From Bryobacterales bacterium (GTDB taxonomy: Bacteria; Acidobacteriota; Terriglobia; Bryobacterales; UBA6623): a stretch of DNA of 35,362 nucleotides. Position numbers and translations under genes: made by a program. The first letter of the stretch is position 1. Every line of letters begins with the position of its first letter. The notes beneath the pieces were generated by a model. It was not told the DNA's origin and made no database searches. It saw only the letters and a program-made list of their open reading frames with translations. Below, piece by piece: positions 2,076-32,794 of this stretch. Location: the NCBI GenBank assembly GCA_028819575.1, contig JAPPLB010000167.1, forward strand, positions 1-35,362, in the 5' to 3' direction.

Positions 2076-3782
2076 TCACCAGGTCAGCGCATGCCCGTCG
2101 CGCCGCGGGTCAGCCCCGCCGGCCAGCGACCCAGTAAGGGGATCGCGGTAAACGCCCTGCACTCCACCCGCATTGCCCGGCTTCACCAACCTGTGTCCAA
2201 GTCCATGCAGGTCCTCGAAGACCTGCGCTGGAAATCCCAATTCCAGATACGTTCTCGAGTCGGACGGAACCGGTGCTCGACCACCGCTACGGTTGACCAT
2301 CATGCGCGGCGACGCGATGGCATGCTGCACGTCCATGCCATAGCCAAGAACCTTCGTAATCACCTGCCCAACCGTCTGAGGGATCGTATACCCCCCTGCC
2401 GCTCCGACGGCCATCAACAGCTTGTCACCCTGCATAACGATGGCCGGCGTCATCACGCCCTTGGCGCGCTCGCCGCCCTCAAGCAGATTCACGTGGTCCT
2501 GTGGGTCGAGCACAAAACCGTAGCGATGACCATTGTTAAGGAAGATGCCCGTGTCACCCGCGATCACACCACTTCCGAATCCGCTGACCAGCGACTGCGT
2601 AAAGGCAACCGCGTTGCCCCAGCGGTCGGCGGCGGCGAGGCTGGTGGTGCCGACGGAGGGCAGCAGCGGTCCGGGAAACGCGGCCGCTTTCTTGCCGTCG
2701 ATCTTCTTCCGCTGCTCGGCGGCATAGGACTTCGAGATCAGGCGCTCTACCGGGATGTCCGCGTCTTCCTTGCCGGTGTTGTAGCGATCGTCGTCGGTCA
2801 GCGCGAGCTTTGCCGATTCGATCCAACGATGTGCGAAGTCGGTCGAGTAGAGGTCGAGATTCTCGAGATCGAAACCCTCCATGATGTTCAAGAGCTGGAA
2901 CATCGACAGCCCGCACGAACCCGGAGGCATCGCGTAAAGCCGATGCCCGAGAAAGTCAATCGAGATCGGATCGCGCCAACGCACATCGAAGTTCTCGAAA
3001 TCGCCCTTCGTGAGAATCCCGCCGTTACGCTGAAAGAACCGGACCACTTCACCACCCAAATCGCCCTTGTAGAAGTCGTCGGCGCCATTCAGGGCAATTC
3101 GGCGGAAGCTGCGGGCAAGGTCCTTTTGCTTGATCACTTCGCCCATGCGCGGCGGACGCCCGTGCGGCAGGAAGACGCGCGCCGACGTGGGAAACGCGGC
3201 CAGCTTGTCAGCCATGCCTCGCAATGACAGCTCGTCGTACTTCGAGATCACAAAGCCTCGTTCCGCCAACTCGATCGCCGGCTCGAAGACGTCACCCAGA
3301 CTCATCGTGCCGTAACGGTCGAGCGCTGCCGCCCAGCCCTTCAAAGCGCCCGGGACGATCGGCGCGAGATAACCCTGGTCGCAATCCTTCTCGGTGAACA
3401 TGTCGAGCCGCGCGGCCGACGGGCTCTTGCCCATCATGTCGAGCCCTACGACTCTGTCCTCCGCCGCAAGGTAGATCAGCATGAACCCGCCGAATCCGCC
3501 CATGCCCGACATGTAAGGCTCCGCCACGTTCAGCGCAGCGGAGGCCGCCACGATGGCATCGATGGCATTGCCGCCATTCATCAATATGCGCAGGCCTGCC
3601 AGGGAACCGTGCTGGTCGGCGGTCGCCACCGCGCCGTTTCGGCCCCAAACGACGCGATGCGCCTTACCCTCGAGCTGAGGGTGGTCAAAGCGGACCGTGT
3701 CCCCAACCTGTTGCGCATTTACGAGAGACGCGGCTCCTGCACCGAGCCCGATAGTGGATAGAAAACGGCGTCGATTCATCAT
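2076..3782 (-). CDS. Gamma-glutamyltransferase family protein, Tat-exported
   Basis: 568 residues, the usual size of an Ntn-hydrolase gamma-glutamyltransferase proenzyme. The N-terminus NRRRFLSTIGLGAGAASLVNA is a twin-arginine signal. Family landmarks are GGNAIDAIVAASAALNVAEP (about 69-88), the glycine-rich GSGVIAGDTGIFLNNG region and GAAGG near the C-terminus. The expected cleavage and nucleophile threonine is T379 in VGTTSLAAAD. In the classical motif the second Thr is followed by His (TTHxSVVD), but here it is Ser, so autoprocessing or activity may differ. Members cleave gamma-glutamyl amides such as glutathione, or acylate amines, in the periplasm. GGGAGAAGAA precedes the ATG. It lies 51 bp after the esterase/SMP-30 gene, probably in one operon. 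Substrate is not determinable. Confidence 0.9.
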   Translation of the reverse strand: MMNRRRFLSTIGLGAGAASLVNAQQVGDTVRFDHPQLEGKAHRVVWGRNGAVATADQHGSLAGLRILMNGGNAIDAIVAASAALNVAEPYMSGMGGFGGFMLIYLAAEDRVVGLDMMGKSPSAARLDMFTEKDCDQGYLAPIVPGALKGWAAALDRYGTMSLGDVFEPAIELAERGFVISKYDELSLRGMADKLAAFPTSARVFLPHGRPPRMGEVIKQKDLARSFRRIALNGADDFYKGDLGGEVVRFFQRNGGILTKGDFENFDVRWRDPISIDFLGHRLYAMPPGSCGLSMFQLLNIMEGFDLENLDLYSTDFAHRWIESAKLALTDDDRYNTGKEDADIPVERLISKSYAAEQRKKIDGKKAAAFPGPLLPSVGTTSLAAADRWGNAVAFTQSLVSGFGSGVIAGDTGIFLNNGHRYGFVLDPQDHVNLLEGGERAKGVMTPAIVMQGDKLLMAVGAAGGYTIPQTVGQVITKVLGYGMDVQHAIASPRMMVNRSGGRAPVPSDSRTYLELGFPAQVFEDLHGLGHRLVKPGNAGGVQGVYRDPLTGSLAGGADPRRDGHALTW

Positions 3783-5576: not shown

Positions 5577-5668
5577 CTTTTTCTCTCGGCGCGATTATAG
5601 CCCCACTTCGGGTACGGAAGAAAATCCAACTGCCATGCCGTGTGCGCTATGATGCTTCGCGATTATCG
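5577..5668. promoter_or_regulatory. Divergent intergenic region
   Basis: This 92-bp gap separates the minus-strand esterase/SMP-30 gene from the plus-strand sulfatase, so it must hold promoters for both. TATGAT at 5648-5653 resembles a -10 box for the sulfatase, but the -35 is poor and the leader would be very short. I see no clear operator. Confidence 0.3.
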
Positions 5669-7105
5669 ATGCAACCCCATCTCAGCCGCCGCGCCTTTGC
5701 GCACCTGGCTATCGGTGCAACAGCCGCAGCCCTGTCGTCCAGCGGCTGCAGTCTCCGCAACAAGCCCCGCCGCCTCGGGGAAGCGCCCAACATCATCCTC
5801 GCCATGAGCGACGACCAAGGCTGGGGCGACACGGGTTACAACGGCCACCCTCACCTGCGTACGCCCTATCTCGACGAGATGGCACACAAGGGTCTGCGGT
5901 TCGACCGTTTCTACTCCGCCTCCCCCGTCTGCTCACCTACACGCGGCAGTTGCCTCACTGGACGCCACCCCTATCGTTATGGCATTTTTCATGCCAATTC
6001 CGGTGATGGCGCTTCGTTCTATCCGCTCCCGTCCGAAGAGTTGACACTCGCCGAGGCTCTCAAGCCTCTGGGCTATGCCAGCGGACACTTCGGCAAATGG
6101 CACCTGGGAGACTTTCAGGGCGAGAAAAAATCGTCGCCCTCCGACAATGGTTTCGACGAATGGTTCTCAACGGTACGCAAAACTCCAACGTACGACCCGG
6201 AAGGCTATTGGTCGAACGGCGAACCCGTTACGGACGTACTCGAGGGTGATGACTCGACTCATATCGTGAGCCGCGCGCTGGACTACATCCGGCGCAAGGT
6301 CGATGAGTGCAGGCCTTTCTTCGTGACGCTTTGGTTTCACACACCCCACTTGCCCATCATTTCAAAGGGCAACCACCGCACCATCTACGGTGGCCATGCC
6401 GGCCAATCGCCGAACTACTGGGGCGCGATCAGCGCCATGGATGAACAACTCGGCCGGCTGCGGCGTGAACTGCGGCGGATGGATGTCGCAGACGACACGA
6501 TGATCTGGTTCTCGAGTGACAACGGACCGGAAGGGGCAGAACAGTCCCCTGATCAGCCCGGGGCCACGGGCGGTCTTCGAGGCCGCAAACGCAGCCTCTT
6601 CGAAGGCGGAATTCGCGTCCCAGGCCTGCTTGAATGGCCTTTGCGCATCCCGGAAGGCCGAGCCACCACCATTCCTGTGGTCAGCTCGGACATTTATCCA
6701 ACGATTCTGGATGCATTGGACCTGACTCCTGGGAATCAACCTGAACCGATTGACGGGATCAGCCTGCTGTCCCTGATCGAAGGCGACATGAGCGAACGTT
6801 CCAGCAACATCGCTTTCGAAACTGATCGTCATGGTGAGCGCATTCCTAAACTCGCGCTCATTGGCAACCGCTACAAATTGATCTCCCGATTGGATGACTC
6901 ACCGGATCTACTTTTTGATCTCGTGGACGATGTGAAGGAAGCGAATAACATCGCGGATGAGCGCCCCGGGATTGTTGCGGCAATGCGGAGGGAAATGGAG
7001 GAATGGCGCGCGTCCTGTGACGCAAGCCGCAACGGCAGCGATTACCTGGCAGCCCGTGGTAAAAGTCACGCGGGCGGCGTTACGCGCCGGGGCCCGATGA
7101 AGTAA
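5669..7105 (+). CDS. Type I sulfatase, Tat-exported
   Basis: About 478 residues from the chosen ATG; an in-frame GTG nine codons upstream (5642) is possible. The N-terminus LSRRAFAHLAIGATAAALSSSGC is a Tat signal ending at a Cys, although Ser at -3 makes the lipobox weak. The alkaline-phosphatase-superfamily sulfatase core follows: metal site NIILAMSDDQGWGD, then the formylglycine motif CSPTRGSCLTG (Cys about residue 88), so it needs a formylglycine-generating enzyme (none in this window). GKWHLGD and SSDNGPEG complete the metal and active site. It would hydrolyse sulfate esters, probably on polysaccharides or glycosides, outside the cytoplasm. It converges on a TauE/SafE exporter gene. Family is sure; the substrate is unknown. 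Confidence 0.95.
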   Translation: MQPHLSRRAFAHLAIGATAAALSSSGCSLRNKPRRLGEAPNIILAMSDDQGWGDTGYNGHPHLRTPYLDEMAHKGLRFDRFYSASPVCSPTRGSCLTGRHPYRYGIFHANSGDGASFYPLPSEELTLAEALKPLGYASGHFGKWHLGDFQGEKKSSPSDNGFDEWFSTVRKTPTYDPEGYWSNGEPVTDVLEGDDSTHIVSRALDYIRRKVDECRPFFVTLWFHTPHLPIISKGNHRTIYGGHAGQSPNYWGAISAMDEQLGRLRRELRRMDVADDTMIWFSSDNGPEGAEQSPDQPGATGGLRGRKRSLFEGGIRVPGLLEWPLRIPEGRATTIPVVSSDIYPTILDALDLTPGNQPEPIDGISLLSLIEGDMSERSSNIAFETDRHGERIPKLALIGNRYKLISRLDDSPDLLFDLVDDVKEANNIADERPGIVAAMRREMEEWRASCDASRNGSDYLAARGKSHAGGVTRRGPMK

Positions 7106-7451
7106 CGCCTGGTCGTTCCAGGAACACGGCGCTGCACCCTCTGTGCCGATGACCGGAGGCGGCGCGTAACCCTTTGGGCGACGGACATTTGCGCTCGTCG
7201 GCTTTGTCGTTCGTCGGAGGAGATCACCCGGATCGCCATCCTCCTCACTTCGCGCCGAGGATGAGCAGGAGCCCGCCGCGCCTACCACGCGACTTTTACC
7301 ACGGACTGCGAGCCCACCCCCAGGAGGACCGTGCTTCCTGAGGTGTTCAGAGGGTTCGAACCAGGCTTTGGGTTGACCGGGAGCACAATCCGAGGAGCTT
7401 GTGCAGCGCTACAGTACGGTGTTTCGAAGAAATCCTCTGACGCTGCCAGCA
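7106..7451. other. 346-bp convergent spacer without recognised gene
   Basis: Space between the sulfatase and TauE/SafE 3' ends. A small hairpin CCTGG-TCGTT-CCAGG at 7108-7122 lies directly after the sulfatase stop but lacks a T-run. A minus-strand open frame continues through 7282-7450 with a Pro/Asn/Ser-rich tail (VLPVNPKPGSNPLNTSGST), which could be a decayed secreted-protein end, but it has no start or homology that I recognise. Confidence 0.4.
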
Positions 7452-8255
7452 TCAGGAACTCCAGTTCCGGTAGAAAATGACCGCTGCGAGAACGCAGAGG
7501 ACGTACGCGAAACGGCGCTGCAGTACCCGTGGGTCGGATCGCAGCGTGATCCGTGGACCGATTTGAGCTCCCACTGCTACCAACACGGCCGGAATGAGCG
7601 TAGAGGACCAATCCAGAGACGACGCCGCAATGTGTCCGGCGAAACCGCTTGCCGCGGTCAACATCACCATGAAGGATGCACAGCCGAAGGCGATTTCGAT
7701 GGACATCCCGAACAGCAAAACCATCAACGGGATCTTCAGAAAGCCCCCAGCAGTGCCCGTAAGTCCGCTCATGACCCCGATCACGAACCACAACGGCAGA
7801 CCGGCGAGCAGATTCACGACATATCGTTGACCTCCCAACTCTCGATGCCAGCGCCAGGGAGCCGCATCACTCGCGACTTCTCTGCCGTTGCCTCCGTAGT
7901 TCTTGAACATCGATACGGCAGCCAACAGTACGACTGACCCCAGAAAGACCATCAGCAACTCGGGAGAGAACCGATATGCGTACAGCCCGCCCAAAAACCC
8001 TCCCGTACCAGCGGCCATTTCGAGCACGATCGCCATCGGCCAGTCAATCCGCCCCGCACGGCCGAAGATGATTGTCGAACTCAATGCCGTAAGCACAATA
8101 AAAAGCTGACTGCGTGCGGCCGCGAGGTGGAAATCGACGCCGAAGAACACCTGAACCGGCGTATAGAAGACGCCTCCGCCCTGGCCGTGCATCGAAAAGA
8201 CCAAGGCGCTTGCCCCGAGAATCAGGGCCATCGACAACAGCTTGAAGCTCAACAT
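7452..8255 (-). CDS. TauE/SafE (TSUP) family sulfite/organosulfonate exporter
   Basis: 267 residues, almost all hydrophobic, with about eight membrane spans in two repeats. Each repeat carries the TSUP glycine-rich signature: HGQGGGVFYTPVQVFFGVD with a following AAARSQ near residues 23-50, and SGLTGTAGGFLKIPLMVLLFG near 163-184. Family members move sulfite, sulfoacetate, thiosulfate or other small anions across the inner membrane. It is convergent with the sulfatase at 5669, so a role in sulfur-anion balance after desulfation is a reasonable inference, but TSUP proteins also occur in other contexts. No strong ribosome binding site precedes the ATG. Confidence 0.88.
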   Translation of the reverse strand: MLSFKLLSMALILGASALVFSMHGQGGGVFYTPVQVFFGVDFHLAAARSQLFIVLTALSSTIIFGRAGRIDWPMAIVLEMAAGTGGFLGGLYAYRFSPELLMVFLGSVVLLAAVSMFKNYGGNGREVASDAAPWRWHRELGGQRYVVNLLAGLPLWFVIGVMSGLTGTAGGFLKIPLMVLLFGMSIEIAFGCASFMVMLTAASGFAGHIAASSLDWSSTLIPAVLVAVGAQIGPRITLRSDPRVLQRRFAYVLCVLAAVIFYRNWSS

Positions 8256-21367: not shown

Positions 21368-22189
21368 TTACAAGTTCTCGGACAGCTTGGCAGCGCGGCG
21401 GGATGCGGAAGCAACCGCCTCGACGAATGCTTCTCGCACCCCGGCCTCCTCCAGCACGGTCAGTCCCTCCACGGTCGTACCGCCCGGTGTCTTGACCTGC
21501 TCGATCCACTCGTTCGGCGTCAAGTCGGTTTCGATCGCGAGCCGCGCAGCCCCATGCAGCGTTTGCCGGGCCAACCGATAAGCAACAGCCTTCGGCAGTC
21601 CCGCCTTGTCACCGCCGACCGTGAGCGCGTCCAGCACATGAAAGACGAAAGCAGGGCCACTTCCCGAAAGCCCGGTAGCCGCGTCCATCGCCGATTCCTC
21701 GACCCACTCTACGCTGCCGACGGTTCGAAACATCCGCTCGACCGCGCATCTTTGCCCGCTGGTCGCCGAAGCATTCGCGCAGAGCGCCGTCGCGCTCTGG
21801 CGCACTGTCATGGCTATGTTCGGCATCGCCCGGAACACCGGTGTTCCTGCCGGAAGCAGCCCCTCGATGCGTCGGATCGGGACCGCCGCTGCAAGAGAGA
21901 TCATGATCTGCCTAGTGCTGAATACAGGCCCGACCGAGGCCAGAACCGCCGCAACTGTCCCGGGCTTGACAGCCAAAATGACAGCATCGGCTCCTTCCAC
22001 CGCCGCTCCGTTGGAACCGGCGGTGACGTGCAGGCCGTATTTCTTTTGCAGCAGTTCCGCGCGTGCGCTCGTCGCGACGGTCGCCCGGAGCCGCTCAGTC
22101 GTCACCAAGGCAGAGTCCAACAGGCCTCGTATCAGCGCTTCGCCGAGACGGCCCGCTCCCAGAATGGCAATCCTCGGGTCTTCAGGCAT
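21368..22189 (-). CDS. proC: Pyrroline-5-carboxylate reductase
   Basis: 273 residues, typical of the family. It reduces 1-pyrroline-5-carboxylate to L-proline with NAD(P)H, the last step of proline synthesis. The N-terminal Rossmann motif is IAILGAGRLGEALIRGLL, followed by DAVILAVKPGTV and FRAMPNIAMTVRQSATAL. The dimerisation domain has ATGLSGSGPAFVFHVLDAL and the signature EQVKTPGGTTVEGLTVLE. No proA or proB is nearby. It begins 53 bp after the class V aminotransferase-like gene, with a repeat fragment in the gap. Confidence 0.96.
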   Translation of the reverse strand: MPEDPRIAILGAGRLGEALIRGLLDSALVTTERLRATVATSARAELLQKKYGLHVTAGSNGAAVEGADAVILAVKPGTVAAVLASVGPVFSTRQIMISLAAAVPIRRIEGLLPAGTPVFRAMPNIAMTVRQSATALCANASATSGQRCAVERMFRTVGSVEWVEESAMDAATGLSGSGPAFVFHVLDALTVGGDKAGLPKAVAYRLARQTLHGAARLAIETDLTPNEWIEQVKTPGGTTVEGLTVLEEAGVREAFVEAVASASRRAAKLSENL

Positions 22190-22223: not shown

Positions 22224-22243
22224 GTGAGGTGAGAAAGGTAGGC
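22224..22243 (+). repeat. Right-end fragment of the dispersed TIR element
   Basis: GTGAGGTGAGAAAGGTAGGC followed by TA at 22244-22245 matches the right terminus (AAAGGCAGGC variant, one change). The rest of the element is missing; the preceding bases hold only CGGAAGGCC. The final C plus TA read TAG on the minus strand and are the stop codon of the adjoining gene. Confidence 0.65.
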
Positions 22244-23427
22244 TAAGTCAGAGCCTCTATCAGCCGGTCAACGTCCGCGAGGTTGTTGAAGACCGATGGC
22301 GAGACCCTCATTTGCCCGGGCTTGCCGTTTCTCAAAGTGACAATCACGCCCGCTTTCTTCAGCCGCTGACGTGCTTTTTCCACATCAGGAACGAGGAACG
22401 TTGCAATGGGACTCTGGTTGCCTCGCGGGGTGATCGAGGGGTATCCGATGGCCGGCATTTCCCGTTGCAGCTTTTCGATCACCGGCCGCACATGGGTCCG
22501 GATGTTCTCGACCCCCAATTCGAGTATGTAGGCCAGCGCTTCGTTCTGACACACAAAACCCACGTGATTCGGCGTGCTGACCTGGTACTGCCGCGCATCC
22601 TTCGCGCCCGACCCGCTGCCGCCGAACTGCACCGGCTGCAAAGCCCCGCCGTGCAATTCTTCCGCCACGTACAGGTACCCGAACCGGCCCCCCATCAGCC
22701 ACTTGTAAGCCGAGCAAGCCAACAGGTCGACACCCATTTTCCGGACATCGATCGGCACCGCGCCGGCGGCCTGAATCACATCGATGAAGACGTATGCTCC
22801 ATGCCTATGCGCCAGATCGCTGATCGCCTCGATGTCGTGCAAGTAGCCGTTGACATTTGAAACCAGAGCCAGCGAAACCAGCTTTGTCTTGCCATCGATC
22901 GCTTTCTCCACATCAGCGAGGTCAATGGTGTAGTCCTTGTGCTTGACAATGCGAACGTCCAAGCCCCGCGCCTTTCGCGAGCGGTAGTTGAACAAGCTGC
23001 CACCGTAGTGCAAGTCGTTCGTGACGACATTGCCTCCGGATTCATGAATGCGCAACCCGTCCACCACGAGATTCTCCGCAATCTGCGTACTGGGAACGAA
23101 CGCGATCTCCGTTGGCTTCGCGCCGATCAGCCGCGCGAACATGCCCCGGACGTTCTCCTGCAGCTCCCTGTTCTCGTATTTTGCCCGACCCTCATCCGGA
23201 CCATTGGTCAGGTATCCGATGTATTCCTGTATTGCGGCGGATGAATGTTTCTCCAGGGGGTGCTCCAACGCGCAATTCAGGTAGGTCTCCCGATCGGCCC
23301 AGGGAAAGTCCGAACGGGCCGAAGCGACGGACCTACGCCGTGGGGCGGCACTAGCGACATTCGAGGCAAGGCCGGCGGCGCCAAAAGCCATGGCCGCTCC
23401 GATGAGCCGGCGACGATCGAGTTTCAT
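22243..23427 (-). CDS. Tat-exported PLP fold-type-I protein (aminotransferase class V-like), paralogue A
   Basis: 394 residues from the ATG preceded by AGGAGG (six bases); an upstream in-frame start at 23442 is disfavoured. LDRRRLIGAAMAFGAAGLASNVASA is a Tat signal, unusual for this mostly cytoplasmic fold. The class V aminotransferase/cysteine-desulfurase-like core has TNDLHYGGSLFNY, SLALVSNVNGYLHDIEAISDLAH, the cofactor-ring Asp in FIDVIQAAGA (D216) and the Schiff-base Lys in SAYKWLMGG (K242). It resembles isopenicillin-N epimerase-type relatives. The gene just upstream encodes a close paralogue. A PLP enzyme in the periplasm must be folded with its cofactor before Tat export. The stop codon is formed by a repeat fragment. 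Reaction unknown. Confidence 0.88.
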   Translation of the reverse strand: MKLDRRRLIGAAMAFGAAGLASNVASAAPRRRSVASARSDFPWADRETYLNCALEHPLEKHSSAAIQEYIGYLTNGPDEGRAKYENRELQENVRGMFARLIGAKPTEIAFVPSTQIAENLVVDGLRIHESGGNVVTNDLHYGGSLFNYRSRKARGLDVRIVKHKDYTIDLADVEKAIDGKTKLVSLALVSNVNGYLHDIEAISDLAHRHGAYVFIDVIQAAGAVPIDVRKMGVDLLACSAYKWLMGGRFGYLYVAEELHGGALQPVQFGGSGSGAKDARQYQVSTPNHVGFVCQNEALAYILELGVENIRTHVRPVIEKLQREMPAIGYPSITPRGNQSPIATFLVPDVEKARQRLKKAGVIVTLRNGKPGQMRVSPSVFNNLADVDRLIEALT

Positions 23428-23475
23428 GGATTCCTCCTGCACTTAGTTTGTTTTCTCTCTACCTGACGGCCGAAT

Positions 23476-24699
23476 CTAAGCAAGCGCGCCCAGCAGTTTG
23501 TCGACATCCTCATGATTGCTGAAGACAGAGGGCGAAAGCCGCATCTTGTTGCCGAAACGCATGGCTACGTGAACGCCCGCAGCCTGAAGCTTTTTCACGG
23601 TCGAAGACGGATCGCTTGCTTCGAAGACGACGATGGGGCTTTCATTTCCCTTCGGCGTGATCGATGGATAGCCGAGTTTGGGCAATTCTTCCTGCAAACG
23701 ATTCGTCAAGCCGCGCACATGCTTCCGTATGTTCGGCACACCGAGCTGAAGAATGTAGTTCAGGCTCTCTTGGGCACAGATCACCCCCTCGTAGGACGGA
23801 TAACTGACTTCGTAGCAACCGGGCCCAGGCCGCGGCCGGAAGGTGATTTCGTCAAGCGCGGCATCGGGCCGGTCGACCCACGGCTCGTAGTTGAACCGCA
23901 CGCCGCCGGAATGCTGCGTCGGCTTCACGATCTTTCGCTGGAGGTCCTCACGAACGTAGAGGAAGCCAAAACCCTTTACACCCATCAGCCACTTGTACGT
24001 CGAGCAGGCGGCGAAATCGATGCCCATGGCGCGTACATCGATCGGCACCGCGCCGGCTGCCTGAATCACATCGACGTACAGGTACGCGCCTTGCGAATGA
24101 GCGAGGTCGCTGATGAGCTTGACGTCGGAAAGATAGCCGTTCACGTTCGACACCAAAGTGATGGAAACGAGCTTCGTGCCGGCATCGATCGCCTTCCGCA
24201 TGTCGTCGATGTCGATGCGCCAGTCTCGATTCTTGACAACGCGCAGATCAAGCCCTTCCTGTTGCCGCATCTTGTAGTTGTAGAGGGCGGCGGTGTAGTG
24301 CAGGTCGTTCGTGACAACGTTGCCTTGTGACAGGACGTGCGCCATCCCGTTCAACAGGTTGCTCTCCGCCTCGATCGTGCTGCGGGCAAAGGCAATCTCC
24401 GAAGGCTTCGCATTGACGAGACGGGCAAACAGATTCTTCGCTTCGCCGCGGGGCGGCGCCCACGACGGCCACCACGGCGCGCCGACCTGATGGGCCACCC
24501 AATCGACGTAACGGTGCAGCGCCGCAGTGGAATGGACACTGAGCGGATGGGATGAGGCGCAGTCGAAATACGCGGCCGTTCGCGCTCTCGGGAAGTCGGC
24601 GCGCACCGCTTCAAAGTCAACTTCTTTCGCGGCGGCAGAGGCCGCGGGCGATGCCGCGCTCAGAGCCGCGGCCGCACTCAGGAATCGGCGTCGATTCAT
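23476..24699 (-). CDS. Tat-exported PLP fold-type-I protein (aminotransferase class V-like), paralogue B
   Basis: 407 residues. The start is set by GGAGGAATGCT before ATG and by the Tat signal MNRRRFLSAAAALSAASPAA; a 141-bp upstream extension reaches into the dispersed repeat and is not real. It aligns along its length with the next gene: NVVTNDLHY, LVSNVNGYL, VDVIQAAGAVPIDVRAMG (ring Asp D210) and CSTYKWLMG (Schiff-base Lys K236). It has an extra WWPSWAPPRG segment at about 76-85. The two genes are 48 bp apart, a tandem duplication that has diverged. The gap contains CCTGACGGCCGAAT, faintly like the repeat's left interior. Reaction unknown. Confidence 0.88.
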   Translation of the reverse strand: MNRRRFLSAAAALSAASPAASAAAKEVDFEAVRADFPRARTAAYFDCASSHPLSVHSTAALHRYVDWVAHQVGAPWWPSWAPPRGEAKNLFARLVNAKPSEIAFARSTIEAESNLLNGMAHVLSQGNVVTNDLHYTAALYNYKMRQQEGLDLRVVKNRDWRIDIDDMRKAIDAGTKLVSITLVSNVNGYLSDVKLISDLAHSQGAYLYVDVIQAAGAVPIDVRAMGIDFAACSTYKWLMGVKGFGFLYVREDLQRKIVKPTQHSGGVRFNYEPWVDRPDAALDEITFRPRPGPGCYEVSYPSYEGVICAQESLNYILQLGVPNIRKHVRGLTNRLQEELPKLGYPSITPKGNESPIVVFEASDPSSTVKKLQAAGVHVAMRFGNKMRLSPSVFSNHEDVDKLLGALA

Positions 24700-24832
24700 A
24701 GCATTCCTCCAAGAGACTTCGATGTCTTTACCAGGACGCAACCTTCGCCTCGCCCGGTCTCGCGGCAAGCTTGCCGCCGGTCGATACTCTTCGTGCGCCC
24801 TTTGAGACAACCGGCGCGGCGGGCATGGGCTA

Positions 24833-25011
24833 GCCTGCATTTCTCACCACATGACGGCCGAAGCACGCAATAGTACCATCAGGACTTCGTTGCGCTTGCT
24901 TGCCGTGCTCAACGTACTGTTCAAGTACGCCTGCGCGCGCCAAGCAGCTCGCGCCTCGTCCTGACGGCCCTCTCACCCACTTCGCCTCGCCACGTGGCGA
25001 GAAATGCAGGC
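24833..25011 (+). repeat. Dispersed TIR element, copy 5 (179 bp, complete)
   Basis: Complete copy: left terminus GCCTGCATTTCTCACCAC, right terminus GTGGCGAGAAATGCAGGC, TA on both sides (24831-24832 and 25012-25013). The core has CGCTTGCTTGCCGTGCTC and CGTAC/GTACG arms, and the perfect palindrome CTCGCCACGTGGCGAG at 24986-25001. The right end makes the TAG stop of the isochorismatase-like gene. Outward from the left end, the repeat contains ATGCAGGCTAGC, which creates a false upstream start for the neighbouring gene. Confidence 0.95.
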
Positions 25012-25904
25012 TAGCCGGAAGACACCGCGTTTGGCTTGGACTGGCCGGCCTTGCGTAGCAAGTCCTCGCTCAAAACCGTCGGGCACCAGTACTGCTCGAT
25101 ATGCTCGATCACCATTTCCGTACCGCGCTCATGGGATACGTAAGGCGCATCGCGCGGATCGTACATGGCGTCGGTAAGGTCGCGAACGAGCACGACTTTG
25201 CGGCCCAGCCGCTTCATCTGACGGATGCCGAAGGGCCGGCCCAGCACGCACATGTTCGTGTGAACGCCCGTCATGACAATGTTGCGAATCCCGAGCTGTT
25301 CACAGTAGTTGTAGATTTCCTGTCCGTTGTCGCTGATCCCGTCGTAGGGGCCGATCTCGATATCGGGGTGCTGACGGCTATACATGCGTACGCGCGGCCG
25401 GAGCACTTCATCGTCGCAAGCCTCGTTCTGGTCGTCGATGGGCAACGCCGCCTCCATTTCCCGGTCGAGATAGCACCACCGAGCGATCGGCACCGGCGGC
25501 GTGACGTGAGGCGCGTCGATCATCCGTTGGCGCTGTGGCGCGTCCTTGTAGAAATCCATCGTATTGCTGGGTGAATGGATGATCGCAACGCCATTGCCGC
25601 GTGCTGCCTCGAGCACCTGGTTGAACCTCGGAATCATCACTTCCATGCGCCGCACCGCCGAAACGCAGTAGAGGTCATCCCACATATCACAGACGATCAA
25701 CGCGGTTTCTGACGCCTTCCAGTCAAGGCTCCGCTCGAAGGGTTGGACCTTCCCACCGGATGCGGGCATCTCGGCCCGGCTGCGCGCCCGCAGGGGTAGG
25801 CGACCGCTTTTCACGGGGCGGTTGGGAAGCGCGGTCAGGGGCGCGAGCGTGGCCCCGGCGAGACCGCCGGAAAACAGAGCAAGGGCGGAACGGCGAGTGA
25901 TCAT
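25011..25904 (-). CDS. Tat-exported isochorismatase-like cysteine hydrolase
   Basis: 297 residues with a twin-arginine signal MITRRSALALFSGGLAGATL and AGGAGG upstream. The isochorismatase-like fold has the catalytic Asp in LIVCDMWDDLYC (D73), a His in IHSPSNTMDFY, and the nucleophile Cys in IVMTGVHTNMCVLGRPFG (C219). The catalytic Lys usual in this family is not obvious; R178 in MYSRQHP may lie near that place. Members hydrolyse amides or vinyl ethers (nicotinamidase, N-carbamoylsarcosine amidase, isochorismatase). Export suggests an extracytoplasmic amide substrate. It lies upstream of the two PLP-like genes but is separated from them by a repeat copy. Confidence 0.87.
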   Translation of the reverse strand: MITRRSALALFSGGLAGATLAPLTALPNRPVKSGRLPLRARSRAEMPASGGKVQPFERSLDWKASETALIVCDMWDDLYCVSAVRRMEVMIPRFNQVLEAARGNGVAIIHSPSNTMDFYKDAPQRQRMIDAPHVTPPVPIARWCYLDREMEAALPIDDQNEACDDEVLRPRVRMYSRQHPDIEIGPYDGISDNGQEIYNYCEQLGIRNIVMTGVHTNMCVLGRPFGIRQMKRLGRKVVLVRDLTDAMYDPRDAPYVSHERGTEMVIEHIEQYWCPTVLSEDLLRKAGQSKPNAVSSG

Positions 25905-31130: not shown

Positions 31131-31498
31131 GCCTGCCTTTCTGACCACCCGACGGCCGAAGAACACGAAAAAAGGCCGTGATTCGTGTCTCGTGCCTCGT
31201 GATTTGTGAAAAACCTTTCCAGGCCATGTTGCGGGTCTTTTTCCTCCGCCCGGCCCGCGCCTCGTACTGACGGCCCTCTCACGCACTTCACCTCGCCACG
31301 TGGCTAGCCTGCATTTCTCACCACCCGACGGCCGAAGCACGCGATACGACCGCCAGGACTTCGTTGCGCTTGCTTGCCGTGCTCAACGTACTGTTCAAGT
31401 ACGCCTGCGCGCGCCAAGCGGCTCGCGCCTCGTCCTGACAGCCCTCTCACCCACTTCGCCTCGCCGCGTGGTGAGAAATGCAGGCTAGAAAGGCAGGC
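31131..31498 (+). repeat. Dispersed TIR element, outer copy, interrupted (about 187 bp without insert)
   Basis: Left terminus GCCTGCCTTTCTGACCAC with TA at 31129-31130; the element runs to 31304, is interrupted by TA plus a full inner copy, and resumes at 31488-31498 (GAAAGGCAGGC), then TA at 31499-31500. Its middle lacks the usual core and instead has a CGTG-rich tract (31176-31206) and TTTTTCCTCCGCCCGG, as in copy 1. Without the insert and one TA, the right arm CACGTGGCTAGAAAGGCAGG equals the copy 1 arm except for one base. The terminal C plus TA supply the stop of the Gfo/Idh/MocA gene. Confidence 0.85.
31307..31485 (+). repeat. Dispersed TIR element, inner copy (179 bp, complete)
   Basis: Termini GCCTGCATTTCTCACCAC and GTGGTGAGAAATGCAGGC are perfect inverted repeats. 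TA flanks both sides (31305-31306, 31486-31487). Core sequence matches copies 3 and 5. It sits inside the right arm of the outer copy, so it moved after the outer copy was in place. Confidence 0.95.
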
Positions 31499-32658
31499 TA
31501 TATGGAAACTCCGAGCTCGTCCCACGTAACCATGCGCCGCTGGTAAATCGACTCGCGGCCCATTATGCCGGTCAGAGCGGCGATGGCAGCGGTTTCGATA
31601 TCGGCGACCGGCTTGCGGCCTTGACGTATGGCCCTCAGGAAGTCGTTGTGGGCGGCCTCGGTGAGGTCGATGTCTTCGGCCGCATGTTCGACGGGCTCGG
31701 CATCCCCGTGCATGTCGTAATAGGTCCACGAACCGTAGTTCAGCTCAATCGCACCCTTCTCACCGTACACAACGAACCAAATGCCGTTCGGCAACTTCTC
31801 GAGCTTGCGAGGGTGCAAGTAGAGCTGGCTGTAGTCAAGGTGCATGTCATTCTGATAGATGTACTCGACACTGAAACCATCCATCATCACCGTGCCGGAC
31901 GGCATCGGCTCGGGCAGATATCTCTTGCCATGTCCATAAGAGCTTTCCGGGCGGCTGCCGGCAAGCCAGTTGCACACGTCGAGGTTGTGAACCGCGTTCT
32001 CGACGATGAGATCACCCGAAAGTTTGACGTCGTTGTACCACCCCGGGAAACGCCGCCGCTGTCCGCCGCCCCCTGCGCGCCGCGTACCGGGCTTCGAGGG
32101 CGTGCTGTGGCGTTGGGCCTTGATGACGAGCGGCTTGCCGATCAATCCGGCTTGATGGATCTGCGCCACGACTTCCTGCATGTGAGGCGCGTTGCGGGAT
32201 TGCTGTCCAATCTGAAACACCGCCTTCGACTTGCGCGCCGCGTCCAGCACCAGCTTGACCTGGTCCGCCGAAATGGCCAGCGGCTTCTCGCAGAACACAT
32301 GCTTGCCCGCTTCCAGAGCGGCCGCGGACATCTCCGCGTGCAGATAGCACGGAGTCGAGATCAATACCGCATCGATGCCGCTCTGACCAAGCAACTCCTT
32401 GTAGTCGCCAAAAGAGCGCGGGTTGTCAGCCCGCGCCGTGCTTTGCGCAGCGTCGCGCGCGGAGGGGTCGACATCGCAGACCGCCTTGATTGCGACATCG
32501 GAGCGCTTGACGAAGCGCCGCAGATGCGCATTGCCTCGTTTGCCCACTCCGATCATCCCGAAGCGCAAAGGTTCTTCCTGCGCAGTCGCTGATGACGCCA
32601 TGGCTGTTGTAGCTACCGTTTGCAGAAAGCTGCGCCGCAACACTTTACTTTTATTCAT
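31498..32658 (-). CDS. Tat-exported Gfo/Idh/MocA family oxidoreductase
   Basis: 386 residues; start set by TTGGAGACTGCT before ATG. The Tat signal is SKVLRRSFLQTVATTAMASSATA. The Rossmann part has LRFGMIGVGKRGNAHLRRF, ISTPCYLHAEMS and FCEKPLAISADQ (EKP motif); the catalytic domain has GDLIVENAVHNLDVCNWL. Tat export lets the protein leave the cytoplasm folded with NAD(P) bound. Glycoside-oxidising members with this layout form 3-keto sugars. Secreted DUF1080 genes lie on both sides, supporting a shared glycoside pathway. The next gene, on the other strand, starts 136 bp away. The stop codon is made by the terminus of the nested repeats. Confidence 0.92.
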   Translation of the reverse strand: MNKSKVLRRSFLQTVATTAMASSATAQEEPLRFGMIGVGKRGNAHLRRFVKRSDVAIKAVCDVDPSARDAAQSTARADNPRSFGDYKELLGQSGIDAVLISTPCYLHAEMSAAALEAGKHVFCEKPLAISADQVKLVLDAARKSKAVFQIGQQSRNAPHMQEVVAQIHQAGLIGKPLVIKAQRHSTPSKPGTRRAGGGGQRRRFPGWYNDVKLSGDLIVENAVHNLDVCNWLAGSRPESSYGHGKRYLPEPMPSGTVMMDGFSVEYIYQNDMHLDYSQLYLHPRKLEKLPNGIWFVVYGEKGAIELNYGSWTYYDMHGDAEPVEHAAEDIDLTEAAHNDFLRAIRQGRKPVADIETAAIAALTGIMGRESIYQRRMVTWDELGVSI

Positions 32659-32794
32659 AGCAGTCTCCAATAAATAAAAGTTACCACTTGCCTTTGGAAG
32701 CTGTTCATCTTACCATTATGCTGCTTCCCGGAAGTAGAGTATAGCTGGGAAAAAGCACTATGACCACTTGGCAGGTCAATCGGGAATAAATGTA

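Follow-up and report, generated by a model that had tools for sequence, protein, structure and literature searches.

Tandem class V PLP-fold paralogues with Tat-type signals in a Bryobacterales genome: family, neighbourhoods and a tentative function

The window analysed here, a stretch of 35,362 nucleotides from a Bryobacterales bacterium, carries two adjacent genes on the same strand, A and B, whose products are class V PLP-fold enzymes with Tat-type signals (Table 1). The order on the minus strand is c15, A, B and then proC, with 311 nt between c15 and A and 48 nt between A and B, and a twin-arginine leader is common to c15, A and B. The initial annotation placed the tandem pair at 22243-24699, coordinates that match twin-arginine starts backed by Shine-Dalgarno sequences: the ATGs at 24699 (A) and 23427 (B) are preceded by GGAGG and AGGAGG, respectively, 5-6 nt upstream. 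The listing of open reading frames gives longer upstream starts, at 24840 for A and 23442 for B.

Table 1. Features of the window, and RidA-family genes at loci of relatives (coordinates of the named locus)
Feature	Position	Strand	Comment
A	23476-24699	-	407 aa; class V PLP-fold enzyme with Tat-type signal; fold like that of SufS, desulfurase Cys loop missing
B	22243-23427	-	394 aa; Tat-type class V PLP-fold enzyme, 49% identical to A over the alignment
c15	25011-25904	-	isochorismatase-fold cysteine hydrolase; twin-arginine start MITRRSALALF; upstream of A
proC	21368-22189	-	gene after B
A twin-arginine signal MNRRRFLSAAAALSAASPAASAAA	24628-24699	-	end estimated by eye
A Shine-Dalgarno GGAGG	24706-24710	-	
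B twin-arginine signal MKLDRRRLIGAAMAFGAAGLASNVASAA	23341-23427	-	end estimated by eye
B Shine-Dalgarno AGGAGG	23433-23438	-	
A ring Asp D210 codon	24070-24072	-	invariant, 58/58 alignment rows
A Schiff-base Lys K236 codon (STYKWL)	23992-23994	-	invariant, 58/58 alignment rows
B ring Asp codon	22780-22782	-	
B Schiff-base Lys codon (SAYKWL)	22702-22704	-	
Window gene passing the loose twin-arginine test, as do the three cassette genes c15, A and B	2076-3782		twin-arginine gamma-glutamyltranspeptidase
Window gene passing the same test	5642-7105		
Window gene passing the same test	31498-32670		
RidA-family (PF01042), L157	7160-7576		Sec or lipoprotein-type leader
RidA-family (PF01042), L158	7125-7604		Sec or lipoprotein-type leader
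RidA-family (PF01042), L160	5116-5568		Sec or lipoprotein-type leader
RidA-family (PF01042), L058	4161-4592		Sec or lipoprotein-type leader

Family, active site and conservation of the cassette

Both proteins pass the Pfam gathering score of PF00266 (A 143.9 bits, B 137.9 bits; cut-off 21.5), which together with their mutual identity bears out the view that they are paralogues with the PLP fold. They were aligned with their relatives in alignment A1, which has 58 family members, 45 of them from Acidobacteriota. Duplicate contig copies (L071, L072, L079, L080, L094) and a fragment (L097) were dropped from 28 loci before counts were made, as were two ORF fragments shorter than 300 aa (upstream pieces in L075 and L085), while L066, a distant member with no signal, was retained among the 58. 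Asp210, Gln213, Lys236 and Arg387 (A numbering) are invariant in 58/58 rows, B included, so that the Schiff-base Lys and ring Asp initially read in both genes are kept throughout the family. B does not have the FNYxPW segment present in A after the Lys, which points to A and B probably taking different substrates.

The predicted structure of A has a pLDDT of 91.6 and a pTM of 0.89, and residues 1-23 are the sole segment of the model with pLDDT below 50. By Foldseek, the structures that match it best are those of cysteine desulfurases (E 1e-30); the comparison with 5b7u gives a VIA Z of 45.0 and an rmsd of 2.4 over 365 aligned residues with 25% identity. The column aligned with SufS His123 is aromatic (Y in 41/58, F in 17/58), A Arg387 falls in the column of SufS Arg379 in the profile alignment, and A Arg381, which is not conserved throughout the family, falls in that of SufS Arg359. 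The catalytic-Cys loop (GHHCxxPxM) is missing, as a 12-column deletion in the family profile relative to three solved chains, and on this ground a cysteine desulfurase identity was rejected for A and B. The same genome also has a SufS and an IscS-type protein, both of which retain their Cys. Every NCBIfam cut-off among the matches listed was missed by a wide margin by both proteins: TIGR01979 (sufS; A 118.3, B 113.8 bits, cut-off 475.1), NF051467 (PvdN; A 47.6, B 44.5, cut-off 650), TIGR01814 (kynureninase; A 53.5, B 45.6, cut-off 246.4) and TIGR04343 (EgtE; A 44.6, B 44.2, cut-off 400).

One could suppose that A and B act in the periplasm as lyases of cysteine or its conjugates, or as desulfurases, and draw sulfur from imported thiols, given that cysteine desulfurases are the closest solved folds among the matches listed and that twin-arginine gamma-glutamyltranspeptidases are encoded in the window and beside a second array of family members in the same genome (see below). 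The loss of the catalytic-Cys loop, the aromatic His123 column and the low sufS score all speak against this, and we consider it unlikely. A Cys-independent lyase is possible, and it overlaps with the explanation that we prefer.

The gene upstream of A had been described as a Tat-exported amidohydrolase-like gene. Its twin-arginine start stands, but c15 passes PF00857 (47.7 bits, cut-off 27) and thus belongs to the isochorismatase fold, which excludes the amidohydrolase superfamily; the nearest solved folds, a weak match, are amide hydrolases. Isochorismatase-fold cysteine hydrolases use an Asp-Lys-Cys triad; c15 has candidates for two of the three residues, Cys219 (HTNMCVLG) and D73, both invariant in 11/11 homologues aligned. 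The mean pLDDT of the c15 model is 72.9. Homologues of c15 occur in 26/61 genomes searched, three in the genus and 23 outside it.

The order c15-A-B is the same in 3/3 genomes of the genus, with c15 adjoining A in each, so that a conserved neighbourhood, for which the initial annotation had proposed a search, does exist at this level. Because B is not followed by proC in one of these genomes (G001, locus L047), the conserved unit is c15 + A + B. A and B are under purifying selection, with dN/dS of 0.07-0.15 in six pairwise comparisons among the three congeneric genomes (0.07-0.16 across c15, A and B), and the cassette order has been kept over dS of about 1.6-2.7 (comparisons with G001). The tree separates A and B into two starred clades, B with one other-family gene (L052) and A with many, which rules out a recent tandem duplication; by their placement the two are old paralogues. 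The family is real and conserved, and its members are probably active enzymes.

Twin-arginine leaders and leaderless relatives

A and B have the features of Tat substrates, namely an RR motif and a hydrophobic stretch, and TatC is present in the genome. A loose twin-arginine pattern is also passed by 8.6% of shuffled N-termini of A and 9.2% of those of B (20,000 shuffles each); the pattern alone is weak evidence, and the real test is conservation of the leader among relatives. The RR leader is found in 44/58 family members and in 18/19 more distant phylum loci (L126 has none), and the Tat-type signals first noticed in both genes are upheld by this conservation. That the N-termini of A and B fail to function as Tat signals, and that the two are ordinary cytoplasmic class V enzymes, seems to us very improbable: although shuffled sequences pass the loose pattern at this rate and an 11-member clade without the leader exists, the motif and hydrophobic stretch are kept in so many relatives, many neighbouring genes are of exported or outer-membrane types, and the leader is dispensable for the fold, as the leaderless members show.

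The loose test is passed by 6/24 predicted genes of the window, and the genome looks rich in Tat substrates on the strength of such N-termini. It has 12 class V genes at E < 1e-10, of which 6/12 have twin-arginine starts (A, B, three on contig C23 and one on contig C97); none was seen in the other six. The initial remark that PLP enzymes are rarely exported therefore needs qualifying, also because PvdN and PtaA are Tat-exported (PMC6206403). The gene on C97 (L011, 3560-5014) is of a distant class V type, 26% identical to B, with SSHKW around the Lys. The three genes on C23 (L009) form a second array of further tandem members, adjoining a CehA-type gene and a twin-arginine gamma-glutamyltranspeptidase (6373-8067), and a sister genome (G002) has four members in tandem (L044). 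In several members of these two arrays the hydrophobic stretch is followed by a Cys (MFFGC, SQLGC, HTAC); these are possibly Tat lipoproteins. Hits at E < 1e-50 were obtained with B in 12/61 genomes and with A in 18/347 phylum genomes, the genome itself included in both counts, and relatives were found in Acidobacteriota and Pseudomonadota.

The 14/58 members without an RR leader are the distant L066, two from Bacteroidota with weak RR-like starts only (L092, L093), and 11 from Gemmatimonadota and Latescibacterota. The last 11 share about 65% identity with A and group in a single starred clade (100/99), which is nested among leader-bearing rows beside the group of A. Absence of Tat as the cause is ruled out, as TatC is present in 7/7 leaderless-locus genomes tested. 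When the tree is rooted on cytoplasmic class V rows (root support 78, long outgroup branches; L064 and L066 left out), two changes suffice to explain where the leader occurs, in agreement with a single gain followed by a single loss, as far as a quick tree with a weak root can indicate. A separate leader-state tree, in which L092 and L093 were treated as unsure, needs 3 changes with all states counted and 1 without L092, L093 and L066. His134 is replaced by N, A, S or T in the 11 leaderless rows and is present in 46/58, that is, in every row outside these 11 except L066; Phe precedes the Schiff-base Lys in the same 11 rows and also in a few leader-bearing ones. Since this is one evolutionary event, the joint change of leader and active site is suggestive only. 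The leaderless orthologue at L085, L086, L087, L088, L095, L096 and L098 belongs to a gene block conserved in Latescibacterota, whose other genes are of the MR/MLE enolase, GNAT, PhyH and transporter types, and a CocE/NonD hydrolase adjoins two leaderless Gemmatimonadota members.

Neighbourhoods of relatives and a proposed function

The count of neighbours covered genes up to 700 bp away from each of the 58 members. A CehA/McbA hydrolase lies beside 15/45 Acidobacteriota members, 12 of the 15 downstream and on the same strand, and these rows account for all such neighbours among the 58 members surveyed. An Oar-type OMP occurs 10 times and c15 3 times, and the order Oar-type OMP, PLP gene, CehA was seen in 7 loci. 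With 0-5 CehA-type genes per genome (E 1e-60), less than 1% of genes would have one so near by chance, by our own arithmetic. No partner is common to all of the more distant acidobacterial loci, whose neighbours differ, and CehA was not found in the 19 more distant phylum stretches. There is likewise no CehA beside A or B in their own genome. CehA is also present in 12 genomes from the same family (G006-G017) in which every class V hit falls short of 1e-40, an observation that counts against specificity of the CehA link.

RidA is usually thought of as cytoplasmic. In 3/6 plasmid records examined (H1, H2, H3, H4, H6 and H9, out of 12), from Sphingobium, Variovorax boronicumulans and V. paradoxus, a RidA gene follows the PLP gene with a spacing of 25 nt, 5 nt and a 4-nt overlap, respectively. 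The PLP proteins are 35-37% identical to A and have RR leaders, and the adjacent RidA proteins have Sec or lipoprotein-like leaders (Table 1). No RidA was seen in the first 700 bases downstream in H4, a record that carries no annotation, or among the PLP-gene neighbours in H6 and H9. Two acidobacterial genomes (G371, G284) have a RidA with no visible leader directly upstream of the PLP gene, and genome G024 (L058) has a leader-bearing one about 3.5 kb away on the opposite strand. The window, the C23 array and the positions directly adjoining the 58 members yielded no RidA. At another locus (L140, 7181-7975), the gene immediately upstream of a class V gene with a twin-arginine leader has a Pfam Uricase match.

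From the observed family, residues, signals, purifying selection, neighbourhoods and loss of the Cys loop, we infer export, PLP occupancy, reaction class and substrate, and tentatively favour, with a confidence that falls somewhat short of even, the following reading: A and B may be Tat-exported, PLP-loaded class V enzymes acting on the alpha-amino-acid parts freed by hydrolases, with imine- or enamine-releasing chemistry. Both belong to fold type I and to a family that has no name; folding and PLP binding would take place in the cytoplasm, and the folded enzymes would then pass through the membrane and act in the periplasm. Neighbouring exported C-N hydrolases, of the CehA/McbA type in many relatives and the isochorismatase-fold c15 in this genus, would release amino-acid moieties from small molecules (peptides, amides, conjugates), and A and B would act on the released alpha-amino-acid part as periplasmic PLP lyases or deaminases. 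The chemistry would be release of an enamine or imine, by beta-elimination or oxidative deamination, in place of sulfur transfer; this appears most likely given the loss of the desulfurase Cys loop and the presence of RidA beside the PLP gene in several relatives. Against the explanation, RidA accompanies relatives 35-37% identical to A and was not found near A and B, 2/5 adjacent RidA proteins have no visible leader, CehA does not adjoin A or B, and c15 is present in 23 genomes outside the genus. The periplasmic amine or amino-acid pathway initially suggested is plausible from the gene neighbourhood.

A bolder form of this reading, which we regard as doubtful, is that the genes belong to an undescribed periplasmic catabolic module. 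A Tat-exported PLP eliminase or deaminase would make reactive imines outside the cytoplasm, together with exported amide hydrolases and, in some bacteria, a dedicated exported RidA to remove them. The leader would later have been lost in one lineage, bringing the enzyme back into the cytoplasm, with changes in the active site.

Comparison with known systems

The nearest solved folds to c15 are the amide hydrolases BiuH, TrtA and RutB, all with the isochorismatase fold, and the match is weak (TM-scores normalised to c15 of 0.41-0.48, 14-18% identity); c15 differs from them in its twin-arginine leader. The neighbour c1 resembles CehA/McbA metallohydrolases in passing NF038032 (164 bits, cut-off 80), but has an extra N-terminal PD40 (TolB-like) propeller. 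With the SufS/CsdA group II desulfurases (5b7s, 1jf9, 9d2d), A and B share the fold, ring Asp, Gln, Schiff-base Lys and carboxylate Arg, whereas they differ in the missing catalytic-Cys loop, the aromatic His123 column, the twin-arginine leader and the sufS cut-off. In a limited set of open-access papers, nothing was found on the export of class V enzymes in Acidobacteria or in connection with isopenicillin N epimerase, or on this family, its arrays, its partners or its leaderless branch.

The closest parallel for export is offered by two PLP enzymes that tailor pyoverdine in the periplasm of Pseudomonas, PvdN and PtaA. They are Tat-exported and carried across together with their cofactor (PMC6206403), so that exported PLP enzymes are not new; an active-site Lys mutant of PvdN stays in the membrane (PMC6206403). 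PMC7497351 presents PvdN as a decarboxylating enzyme that uses O2. A and B have Tat-type signals like these enzymes and could, in the same manner, have a tailoring or transaminating role in the periplasmic completion of a secreted natural product. The shared superfamily, Tat export, the PLP precedent and the match of all 58 members to the NCBIfam PvdN model (best E 1e-20) agree with such a role. That model is not the best match, however, and A falls far below its cut-off; no pyoverdine context was seen around A and B, and no NRPS or siderophore domain was found in the 8 window proteins scanned. We therefore hold a PvdN- or PtaA-like role to be improbable. PvdN is not among the best 50-60 matches listed in sequence or fold searches. 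We return to the favoured reading of periplasmic enzymes acting on freed amino-acid parts, which would also bear on how soil bacteria handle amino-acid conjugates before import. Few enzymes are known to carry out PLP chemistry after export, PvdN and PtaA among them (PMC6206403). By comparison, the family of A and B is export-tagged through much of its range, forms tandem arrays of up to four genes and includes natural leaderless orthologues, which makes it testable how PLP enzymes work and stay loaded outside the cytoplasm.
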